In this document: positions 3,782 to 10,913 of the stretch, piece after piece
Numbering within the stretch: the stretch's first letter is position 1
Layout of the letters: each line of letters starts with the position of its first letter
Source: Ianthella basta
Taxonomy: Eukaryota > Porifera > Demospongiae > Verongiida > Ianthellidae
NCBI GenBank assembly: GCA_964019415.1
Contig: OZ025890.1
Location: 3,874,553 to 3,938,552, forward strand
Length of the DNA stretch: 64,000 bases
Direction: 5' to 3'
Translations under genes and position numbers: made by a program
The notes under the pieces: model-generated
The model's input: the letters and a program-made list of their open reading frames with translations, nothing else
Told to the model about the DNA's origin: nothing
Database searches by the model: none

Positions 3782-4350
3782 GTTGGCAACACTGCGGCTA
3801 CTAAAAGAAAAGGGTAGTGAATCGCGATGCTTGGAAGTAGCTAGTAAGTCTCTGAGACGGATGATGATGATGCTGAGAGGTGGGACAGCCCCCCTTATGA
3901 TTGAAAGTGGACGATGGCGAGGGCTGCCAAGAGAGGAGAGAAGGTGTCGGGAGTGTCAATCAGGGAAGATTGAGGATGTGCCCCATTGGTTGTTGGAGTG
4001 TCATGCATGGGGCACAGAACGACAAGCTCTCCTGCAGTGCATGAGGCAAGTAGTCAATGATTTTGACAATCTTGAGGAGGATGACAAGTTGATCTGCGTA
4101 TTGGACAGGGGATGCAAGCACGCATCAATATTGAAAGCCATTATGAAAATGTGGAGTGCCCGATTCTATTAGCTAATGCCCCCTTTCAAGTACCTGTCCA
4201 GACTGATTGCTGTTGAACTGATTAATTGACAATACTGACATGACTATAATTATGCTTATTATGATGTTTACTTTGCTGCTTCTTTTGGCCTCACAGGGCA
4301 GTTTGGCCCTAGTGCCTGAGGGCATGTGGCATAATAATAATAATAATAAC
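3780..4350 (+). mobile_element. Non-LTR retrotransposon (LINE) 3' fragment
   Basis: Codons 3780-4172 encode the C-terminal end typical of LINE ORF2. There is an RGGTA stretch, then E-x-GRW-x-GL-x-R, then a CxxC(x8)HxxxxC zinc-knuckle-like cluster (CREC...HWLLEC) and a basic tail ending KMWSARF. A 3' UTR follows and ends in an ATA/TAA repeat at 4330-4350, as expected for a simple-repeat-tailed LINE. No reverse transcriptase core is present, so it is 5'-truncated. It belongs to the same family as the fragment at 11645-12457. Confidence 0.8.
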
Positions 4351-4533
4351 ATATACACACAAACACACATCACATGCAGACACACATATACATGAACAAG
4401 GGTTAATCACTGGATATTACACCTACCAGCCTTCTACACCGAAGTGTTTCAGGAGGCTGGGGGGCCGGAGCCCTATTGATGGCAACCAGTGATCGCCCTC
4501 CCCCATTACTAGTCATCTTACAAAGATGGAAGA

Positions 4534-4577
4534 GCCACAGACAGCTGTTTCGCCTGATTGGGGCTCATCAGTGTGGC
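4534..4577 (-). ncRNA. Type I hammerhead ribozyme, inverted copy
   Basis: On the minus strand the same elements occur: helix I strands at 4577-4572 and 4539-4534, CTGATGA at 4571-4565, GCC/GGC helix II, GAAAC, and GUC ending at 4540. The core is unchanged relative to the plus-strand copy; the differences lie in the distal helix I region near 4517. Two intact ribozymes facing each other mean transcripts of either strand would contain a cleavable motif. Confidence 0.8.
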
Positions 4578-4961
4578 GTACTGATGGAATGCAGGATGAC
4601 TAGTCACTCTTGTATCCCCCACCAGTGAAACACTTGTGGTTTCAACAAGCTAGAGTGAATATTAATGGGGGAAGGCTAAGTCATGAGCATGACTTGTGCG
4701 GGATTGTTGAGAGGTCGGTTCATTGCAGTAAGCCACTGCAACGACCAGGTGTAATATCCAGTGATTAACCCTTGCTCAACCTAGCCCGGCCTGGCCGTTG
4801 CAGTGGCTTACTGCAATGAACCGACCTCTCAACAATCCCGCACAAGTCATGCTCATGACTTAGCCTTCCCCCATTAATATTCACTCTAGCTTGTTGAAAC
4901 CACAAGTGTTTCACTGGTGGGGGATACAAGAGTGACTAGTCATCCTGCATTCCATCAGTAC

Positions 4962-5005
4962 GCCACACTGATGAGCCCCAATCAGGCGAAACAGCTGTCT
5001 GTGGC
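4962..5005 (+). ncRNA. Type I hammerhead ribozyme
   Basis: Helix I is GCCACA (4962-4967) with TGTGGC (5000-5005). The first core block CTGATGA is at 4968-4974. Helix II is GCC/GGC (4975-4977 with 4985-4987) and a 7-nt loop. The second core block GAAA is at 4988-4991. A minimal helix III (AC/GU closing an AGCU loop, 4991-4998) leads to the cleavage triplet GUC at 4997-4999. An outer helix I extension pairs ACTAGTCATCCT (4935-4946) with AGGATGACTAGT (5028-5039). All invariant core bases are present. The very short helix III resembles retrozyme and Penelope-type hammerheads, which may act as dimers. Confidence 0.85.
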
Positions 5006-5284
5006 TCTTCCATCTTTGTAGGTTTGTAGGATGACTAGTAATGGGGGAGGGCGATCACTGGTTGCCATCAATAGGGCTCCGGCCCCCCAGCCTCCTGAAA
5101 CACTTCGGTGTAGAAGGCTGGTAGGTGTAATATCCAGTGATTAACCCTTGTTCAACCTAGCCCGGCCTGGCCGTTGCAGTGGCTTACTGCAATGAACCGA
5201 CCTCTCACACATATACATGGTATCTAATACATCCCTGCACTCCCCCCTTATTCCCCCTTCCCCCTCCCCCTCCCCCCCCCCCAG

Positions 5285-5389
5285 GTATGTATACATGACA
5301 AGGATGTGATTGGTCTAGAGCACCACCCACACCAGAATCTCCTGGCCACCTTTGGGGAGGACACACAGCTCAAACTGTGGAAACTATAG
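5285..5389 (+). CDS. SMU1: Terminal exon of SMU1-like WD40 splicing factor
   Basis: After a poly-C/CCAG acceptor, 34 codons encode the last WD40 blade and stop. The segment [20 protein letters not shown] and the LKLWKL end match the C-terminus of SMU1, a spliceosome-associated WD40 protein (vertebrate form: HEKDVIG..HHPHQNL.AT.....LKLWK). An AATAAA signal follows at 5522-5527. I found no upstream SMU1 exons between 942 and 5284, which is filled with mobile elements. They may lie left of the window beyond a large intron, or this may be an orphan exon. Identification is by remembered similarity. Confidence 0.8.
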
Positions 5390-9396: not shown

Positions 9397-9704
9397 CTGT
9401 GTGTAAGTGCCAAAGGCACATTGGAATTTGGTGGTTTCTATAATTATATAGAGTGCATACCTATTCCTCAAGGGTGGCGATACCATGTTGATGCATGTAT
9501 GGCTTGAAATATTTTCAAGGGGGGGGGGGGGGAGAATTATAGTAAGGGGGGATTCCCCCCAATGCACCCTTGTATACTATAGTTCAGCTGTAACCAATTA
9601 ATGGTTACTGACACAATAAAAATATTCATTTATTAACCAATAATAGAATAATGTACAACATAAAATAGAATGAAGAACACACTAAACGAGGTGTGTCAGC
9701 TCAC

Positions 9705-10913
9705 CTTTGAAGTCACTGCTGGCTGATCTCTCAACTGTTGGATATTGGCTTGTTGTGCTCGAATGGCTGCATCCTTCTCCCTCAATGCCTCATCCTTCTC
9801 AGCGAATACTACTTCGTTTGCACGTATTACCTCATCTAGGTGCCAAAGTGCCTTGTCTTTCCCACTAATGACCTCATCTTTCCCCTTTATAACTTCATCC
9901 TTCTCCTTCAAGGCATCCTGCAATGCCTCATCCTTCTGTCTGCATTCTTCCTCCTTGGCTGACAACTGCTGGCGAAGGTGTTCAAGAAGAACAGCAACAT
10001 GGCTGTCTCCTGGGAGCGATGACTCTATACGTCTCAGCTCTCTCACCAACATCACACTGGAGGGACGCTTGCTTGGCTGGTCCTGCAGACACTGTGTGAC
10101 AGTGGGGAGAAACAGCTGCTTCTCTTGTGCAGTGAACATTGCAACATAACGTTCACGACGCTGGAGTTCGGTCAGACCAATAACCTGGTCTCCTTCATAT
10201 CTCTTTGGAGAACCAGGGTTGGGCCACTCGTGGGTCAGAGTAGAGAGGATGATGTTGCCAAAGGAGAAGATGTCCAACTTCTCATCGTACCGAGGAGGAT
10301 CATGGAGAGCCTCAGGAGCCATGAATGCCAACGTGCCCTTTATGGATGACCTGCGGCTGAGGGCACATGGGTTGATGGCTCGACTCATGCCAAAATCGCT
10401 CACCTTGGTCACGAAAGAGACCACATTCAACAATACGTTGTTGGTACTCAAGTCGTGATGGACGAGAGGCGGGTTCTGGCTGCGGAGATAGGCAAGCGCT
10501 TGGGTCACCTGACGGAGGACGAGCGCTTTGAGGTTGAGGGGGAACTCCTCCTTGCTGTGATCCTCCAAGTGCATGCGAAGACTGGTGTCCATCTTCTCCA
10601 TGACGAGAACTGGTAAGCGAGAGCTGCGCTCAAAGTACACTCCAAGGAACTGAACAACTCCTGGATGACGCAGCTTCGACCACGTTAGGCATTCCGCCTC
10701 GAAGTTGCCGATCAGTTTCGCTACTCCTCCGGGCGACTGGTCTTCGAGCAGGATTTCATGAAGACGTTTTGCCGCACAGACAGTTCCAATCCATTCTACT
10801 TCATACACGGTAGCGTCAGCCCCTCTCCCGAGTTTGGTGTCTGTAAACGTCACGTTCTCAATGAGCAGGCCGGGGAACCTGGAGCTCAAAGATGGACGTA
10901 CCCTTTCCGACAT
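9705..10913 (-). CDS. TKL-like protein kinase with charged coiled-coil tail
   Basis: 403 codons run from the ATG at 10913 to an AAG-GTGAGC splice donor at 9705, so the protein probably continues in further exons. Residues about 22-295 form a kinase domain: glycine loop GRGADATV (29-36), lysine K49 in CAAKR, HHDLSTNN (152-159) with the catalytic Asp at 154, DFG at 173-175, APE at 199-201. HRD is changed to HHD, making it a non-RD kinase. The style (VYEVEW, LRHPGVVQFLG) is tyrosine-kinase-like. Residues 310-395 are Glu/Lys/Asp-rich with repeats such as KEKDEVIKGKDEVISGKD, predicted coiled coil. It acts presumably as a cytosolic signalling Ser/Thr kinase; no ligand domain is visible. Such kinases are numerous in sponges. 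A second partial copy is at 1-776. Confidence 0.9.

Follow-up and report, generated by a model that had tools for sequence, protein, structure and literature searches.

The insertion at positions 4395-5205 of a 64,000-nucleotide stretch of the Ianthella basta genome, the whole of which is referred to here as the window, consists of two oppositely oriented arms of a non-coding, hammerhead-bearing unit, joined head to head as a single insertion within an exact 14-bp target-site duplication. The element is a non-autonomous hammerhead retrozyme whose RNA, itself probably circular, is quite probably copied by a Penelope-type enzyme from both cut strands of the target. The features of the locus are as follows.

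4381-4394, no strand: left target-site duplication CACACATATACATG, an exact 14-bp direct repeat whose last 2 bases also fit the element end
4393-4749, minus strand: inverted arm of 0.98 unit, starting at the no-tail site (unit position 32)
4534-4577, minus strand: type I hammerhead, cut expected between 4540 and 4539 (RF00163, 29.6 bits)
4747-5122, plus strand: direct arm, one full 376-bp unit
4962-5005, plus strand: type I hammerhead, cut expected after 4999 (GUC; RF00163, 29.6 bits)
5123-5207, plus strand: partial second unit, reaching on its outer side to the tail site (unit position 85)
5155-5207, plus strand: the "tail" (unit 33-85), which separates the two fixed ends, contains a predicted stem-loop and occurs only at the right outer end
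5206-5219, no strand: right target-site duplication CACACATATACATG, an exact direct repeat whose first 2 bases also fit the element end
5285-5389, plus strand: context, an SMU1-like C-terminal exon that includes the stop, 79 nt beyond the end of the element

The direct arm (4747-5207) amounts to 1.23 units, that is, one 376-bp unit followed by the first 85 bp of the next. The initial annotation had described the locus as a direct repetition with a 376-bp period, and the period holds, but direct repetition is confined to 85 bp (4747-4831 and 5123-5207, 99% identical) and the locus is a head-to-head insertion rather than a simple tandem; the inverted copy at 4393-4749, its minus-strand hammerhead and the flanking 14-bp direct repeat had escaped notice. 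As inverted repeats, the arms match over 231 nt at 100% and over 132 nt at 99%; mismatches occur at 3 of 364 positions, and an 8-nt duplication also sets the two apart. Both carry a 4-nt insertion and a deletion in helix II of the hammerhead, and since neither change occurs in 53 other full units, both arms appear to derive from one RNA variant. The unit is 376 bp long in the window copy and 365 bp in the family consensus, with a GC content of 51.3% and 52.1%, respectively. The claim that the element lacks an ORF was borne out, the longest ATG-initiated frame in 4393-5207 being 49 amino acids long (41-49 amino acids with the family consensus included). Its designation as a retrozyme-like element also stands, given the type I hammerhead, the non-coding unit of 365 or 376 bp, the dispersed copies, some of them with tandem units, and the target-site duplications.

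Some further observations concern the surroundings of the element. A frame at 3836-4172 ends in a cysteine-rich stretch, which we take to resemble the C-terminus of a LINE reverse transcriptase (RT), after which a TAA run (about 4331-4349) comes immediately before the element. Positions 1-470 of the window repeat part of a kinase ORF (9696-10913), and an antisense ORF at 82-321 recurs at 10219-10458; close relatives of the kinase are numerous, with 858 proteins at E 1e-30 or better. Matches to miRNA families in the element region, all below the gathering score, were attributed to the long hairpin described below and set aside.

Because there is one hammerhead on each strand of the window copy, a transcript of either strand would be cut once and would release no unit. 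For the plus-strand transcript, folding predicts a near-perfect hairpin some 350 bp long (minimum free energy -773.5 kcal/mol, versus a mean of -265.2 for 20 shuffles), which would bury the ribozyme, and double-stranded RNA would be a likelier product of this copy than circular RNA. The single hammerhead per strand and the predicted hairpin speak against the earlier suggestion that the copy offers a host-driven source of circular RNA. Among the 38 loci of the family discussed below, only nine carry at least two intact hammerheads on one strand, spaced by a unit, and could serve as sources. The SMU1-like intron in which the element had been placed fared better on one side than on the other. The downstream exon is indeed SMU1-like, its peptide matching residues 481-512 of an SMU1 entry in the PDB (E 1.2e-13, the best single-stretch match, with multi-repeat WD40 proteins outscoring SMU1 in sum), but the upstream exon was not located, and the intron is a putative one. 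Lying 79 nt upstream of this exon, the element may be intronic.

The type I hammerhead put forward in the initial annotation is real. On the plus strand it has a 6-bp helix I, a minimal helix III of 2 bp and GUC at the cut site, and the minus-strand sequence is identical. When 1 kb was searched with Rfam model RF00163, as had been suggested, it scored 29.6 bits (E 4.9e-5) and so fell short of the gathering score of 34, which nothing in the window reaches. One G of helix II is missing in the window copy and present in 53 of 54 full units, and the helix has 3 bp here versus 4 bp in the family consensus. What had been described as a 12-bp distal helix corresponds to a pairing of 15 nt, 93% complementary, between 4935-4949 and 5025-5039. 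Of the 37 sister loci fetched, 20 were scanned, and 17 of these hold 33 RF00163 matches of at least 34 bits, most at 38.7 and the best at 40.6 bits; in the remaining three (L044, L063 and L064) no match of at least 34 bits was found.

The genome search for further copies of the unit gave 161 matches from the best 40 of 973 first-look candidates, the ones that were scored, and the hammerhead core pattern, in which the bases at one helix-II pair are left free, has 422 exact matches in the 209-Mb genome versus 0 for a reversed control, so that the hammerhead is not a chance occurrence. Judged by eye among the matches listed, the bases at this free position can almost always pair with each other (GCCC/GGGC, GGCC/GGCC, GACC/GGTC), with one exception noted. 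A pairing test was made on 15 distinct cores of our choosing, from which rows with length changes or a lost cut site were excluded and in three of which helix III was shortened. In this test 97.6% of cells pair, versus 91.7% in shuffles and at most 44.4% when slid, and two-sided changes are found at 6 of 14 hammerhead pairs, a figure reached by 0 of 500 shuffles; a point against the test is that 25 of 500 shuffles attained its measure of further pair types. From these hammerhead sequences we infer that the RNA of the element would cleave itself. The genome search with RF00163 itself, in which 73 of 23027 candidates were scored, gave 18 matches, none of them in loci of the window's family, and is not a census.

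Hammerhead cores of another kind were noted at L085 (C2:4546500-4547400) and L086 (C2:15735200-15736100), with a long helix III and a covarying helix II. They adjoin or sit between (GT)n/(CA)n runs, show no second unit in the 0.9 kb read, and score weakly with Rfam HH9 (25-30 bits, gathering score 52); close to the end of C2, a 30-kb interval contains three cores of the L086 type.

The 38 loci of the window's family (family A) are the window copy and 37 further stretches, which cover all clusters of the listed matches; drawn from a larger family, the sample comprises its best-scoring members, those most similar to the window copy. In 26 of the loci the two outer ends could both be placed, and without exception these have one end around unit position 32 (19-37) and one around position 85 (84-94), with the 3' end of the sense strand facing outward at both (in L052 the arm on the tail side measures just about 10 nt and was read by eye, and in L067 the no-tail end was taken from other alignments, one aligner having picked another piece). 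The distance between the two fixed positions, about 43-53 nt, constitutes the tail. Exact duplications of 8-16 bp flank 24 of the 26 insertions and are at least 12 bp long in 19 of these 24, versus 4 of 760 random flank windows; no exact target-site duplication was found at L043 and L058. The other 12 loci comprise ten with one fixed end only and two composites (L040 and L041). Three of the ten (L055, L069 and L072) have one arm only and are flanked by a duplication of 11-13 bp.

The same rule holds in a second family, family B (L001-L003, L005-L007), which is about 81-86% identical to the family-A consensus in the aligned parts. Its 40 loci were taken from the 150 matches listed out of 153, with 40 of 813 candidates scored, and were assessed by match coordinates, with end ranges that we set after looking. 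Both ends fall within range in 21 of the 40 loci, and all 21 have one of each; 16 loci have one such end and 3 have none. At least two pairs among the 21 look like duplicated loci, which leaves about 19 independent insertions. Across the 26 family-A and 21 family-B loci there are 0 cases in which the same end is used twice, and if two equally likely sites were chosen freely, the probability of 26 + 19 mixed cases would, by our arithmetic, be about 2^-45.

The arms of the family-A insertions, measured in 25 loci (L052 left out), bear on the nature of the template. Longer than one unit in 29 of 50 cases, they cross the ribozyme cut site in 38 of 50, and the number of direct tandem units rises from 1.23 in the window copy to 6.23 in L062, the longest arm. 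Arms of several units that read through the cut site imply that the template is either a circle or an uncut multimer. Arm-to-arm similarity was considered as proof of a single template and is weak, the difference within loci lying only slightly below the permuted value (0.033 versus 0.039, sd 0.0025, lowest of 300 permutations 0.032; 21 loci). Nor is any claim made from microhomology at the junctions, where overlaps of at least 3 nt are found in 7 of 25 cases (5.3% expected) and filler or unaligned bases in 13 of 25.

Three observations on individual arms may be added. L057 and L067 have different flanks and the same arm junction (unit 358/330, with a 7-nt overlap), for which a recurrent joining site and a re-mobilised inverted RNA are candidate readings. 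The largest array, L062, is a 3.2-kb insertion with a 13-bp duplication and carries 6 and 2 hammerheads on opposite strands; it is a possible source locus. Among 25 tail-side arms, 13 end at unit 324-360 or 1-6, 11 of these after 1.22-1.34 units, perhaps at a strong RT stop imposed by a hairpin predicted near 316-360.

Penelope-like elements (PLEs) of the same genome are arranged in the same way. The genome has 55 GIY-YIG matches, which by eye form 13 divergent pairs, 1 same-strand pair and 0 convergent pairs. At L078, an RT and a GIY-YIG domain are encoded in one frame, the two copies form a head-to-head pair within a 12-bp duplication, and a minimal hammerhead motif lies near each outer end, whereas only one of the two sides has a tail, of about 37 nt. 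The motif was identified by pattern matching, and an Rfam search at E 0.1 listed no hammerhead in L078. The outer ends of five further pairs were fetched, three of which belong to the same PLE family. All four readable pairs of this family (six pairs fetched in total) are head to head, with duplications of 12, 12, 14 and 14 bp and a tail at one end. Of the remaining two pairs, one is unreadable on one side, and the other, L083/L084, belongs to another family and has no clear ends. The tail word GCAATGAACC, the sole one common to family A and the PLE, was considered as a binding motif and dropped, being absent from L001-L008.

The retrozyme and the PLEs are alike in their head-to-head layout, their target-site duplication, the tail at one of the two outer ends and the hammerhead motif upstream of the start sites. 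Unlike the PLEs, the retrozyme has no RT or endonuclease ORF and is therefore not itself a PLE, though it is inserted like one; helix III is present in its hammerhead and missing in the PLE motif of this genome. This arrangement has been described in a rotifer, where, in excerpts of PMC3846280, Penelope elements have inverted pLTRs, a duplication and a tail at one pLTR. According to passages of PMC11167929, a purified PLE protein cuts and extends both target strands and starts at two adjacent internal sites of the RNA, the tail being the stretch between them. In the same passages the start site did not differ from one strand to the other and hammerhead cleavage was dispensable in vitro, so that neither a strand-coupled start site nor a requirement for processed RNA finds support in that assay; one start site per strand is suggested by the genomic end rule instead.

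In the mechanism that we propose, unit-length RNA from tandem source loci would cleave itself and probably be circularised. A Penelope-type RT with a GIY-YIG endonuclease would make a staggered double cut in the target, giving rise to the observed duplications of 8-16 bp, and both freed target 3' ends would prime minus-strand cDNA on the retrozyme RNA. Priming would occur at two fixed internal sites about 43-53 nt apart, the positions at which the insertions are seen to end, with one site per target strand. The cDNAs would run variable distances along the RNA, sometimes for several laps, and the joining of their free ends would yield the head-to-head structure that is observed. The exact single use of each start site would fit a scheme in which a single enzyme assembly makes the two cDNAs from the same RNA molecule. 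In its most specific form, the mechanism would involve a dimeric Penelope-type enzyme on one circular RNA, using both start sites once and extending the two target 3' ends simultaneously, with each polymerase completing up to six laps and leaving minus-strand cDNAs that are then joined; this we offer tentatively, at somewhat less than even chances. If it is true, animal retrozymes would be obligate parasites of PLEs, moved by symmetric two-strand priming on a circle, a process that to our knowledge is not familiar from LINEs or LTR elements. Any specific PLE family would be a candidate partner only.

Other routes to such structures differ in how they account for the two ends. Head-to-head copies could also be made by LINE-type target-primed reverse transcription with twin priming, and a frame that we presume to be the end of a LINE does adjoin the element. 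Twin priming by L1 likewise leaves an inverted 5' segment and a duplication of roughly a dozen bp. L1, however, has a single fixed start and inverts in a minority of insertions, whereas here the two starts are each fixed, and distinct from one another, wherever both ends were placed (47 of 47 loci), with inversion as the rule; moreover, no poly-A was found at the outer ends examined, and PLEs with this very layout are present in the same genome. We regard a LINE origin as improbable. A foldback or MITE-like DNA transposon that happened to contain a hammerhead would have inverted-repeat ends and a target-site duplication as well, but the outer ends are asymmetric, one having about 53 nt more than the other, the duplications vary from 8 to 16 bp, and the centre is variable, with arms of up to 6.23 tandem units, all of which makes such an origin scarcely credible. 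Self-priming, in which a single cDNA folds back and copies itself into an inverted repeat, is the reading favoured for PLEs in the excerpt of PMC3846280, and it would suit both the palindromic structure and the strong hairpins predicted in the unit. It predicts that the arms meet at neighbouring positions, yet their inner ends lie at unrelated unit positions (mean circular distance 89.8 nt versus 80.0 permuted, 25 loci) and come within 20 nt of each other at 1 of 25 junctions; it would also leave unexplained why there is another fixed outer end 53 nt away, and we consider self-priming very improbable.

A different matter is whether, with all else as in the proposed Penelope-type mechanism, the template is a linear multimeric transcript of genomic arrays and not a circle. 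Tandem loci do exist (L062, with its 6 and 2 hammerheads), and unprocessed PLE RNA is the dominant substrate in vitro in the passages of PMC11167929. Against this, only 9 of 38 loci have at least two same-strand hammerheads at unit spacing, yet 29 of 50 arms exceed one unit, and on a multimer the same site in different units could serve both primers, which 0 of 47 loci show. A linear template is a serious alternative, if an unlikely one, and the preferred reading remains that of a Penelope-type enzyme copying retrozyme RNA, probably circular, from both cut strands.

Among known systems, twin-primed insertions of L1 resemble those described here in that two target ends prime on the RNA and an inverted segment results, and differ in that only one start is fixed and inversion is not obligatory. 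Plant LTR retrozymes, as described in excerpts of PMC7229834 and PMC7761336, are likewise hammerhead-bearing and non-autonomous, with circular RNA as the proposed intermediate, but have LTRs of their own, a PBS, a PPT, type III hammerheads and 4-bp duplications. Animal non-LTR retrozymes are characterised in the excerpt of PMC7229834 (Cervera and de la Pena 2020) by a non-coding unit of 170-400 nt and a type I hammerhead with a short helix III, and the present elements agree with them in unit length, in having one type I hammerhead per unit, in occurring as dispersed copies, some of which have tandem units, and in duplications that, when present, exceed 4 bp (here 8-16 bp in 24 of 26). The GC content of 51-52% compares with less than 50% in that excerpt, a descriptive rather than a defining trait. 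Unlike the animal elements described there, the usual insertion here is head to head with two fixed ends. The words "inverted" and "head-to-head" are absent from the main text of PMC7229834 as available, passages of PMC11722881 and PMC8490949 contain no head-to-head retrozyme insertions, and no paper on such insertions was found in the open-licence literature as judged by titles, abstract openings and term counts. PLEs have been proposed to move animal retrozymes on the grounds of shared hammerheads, tandem copies and co-occurrence (excerpts of PMC7229834 and PMC7761336). What is new here is that the insertions themselves bear the PLE signature, in many events, and this signature, as read from genomic copies, is an addition to the earlier proposal. 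Since the mode of PLE insertion is called little known in the passages of PMC11167929, the rule of one of each end would provide a genomic readout of that mode.
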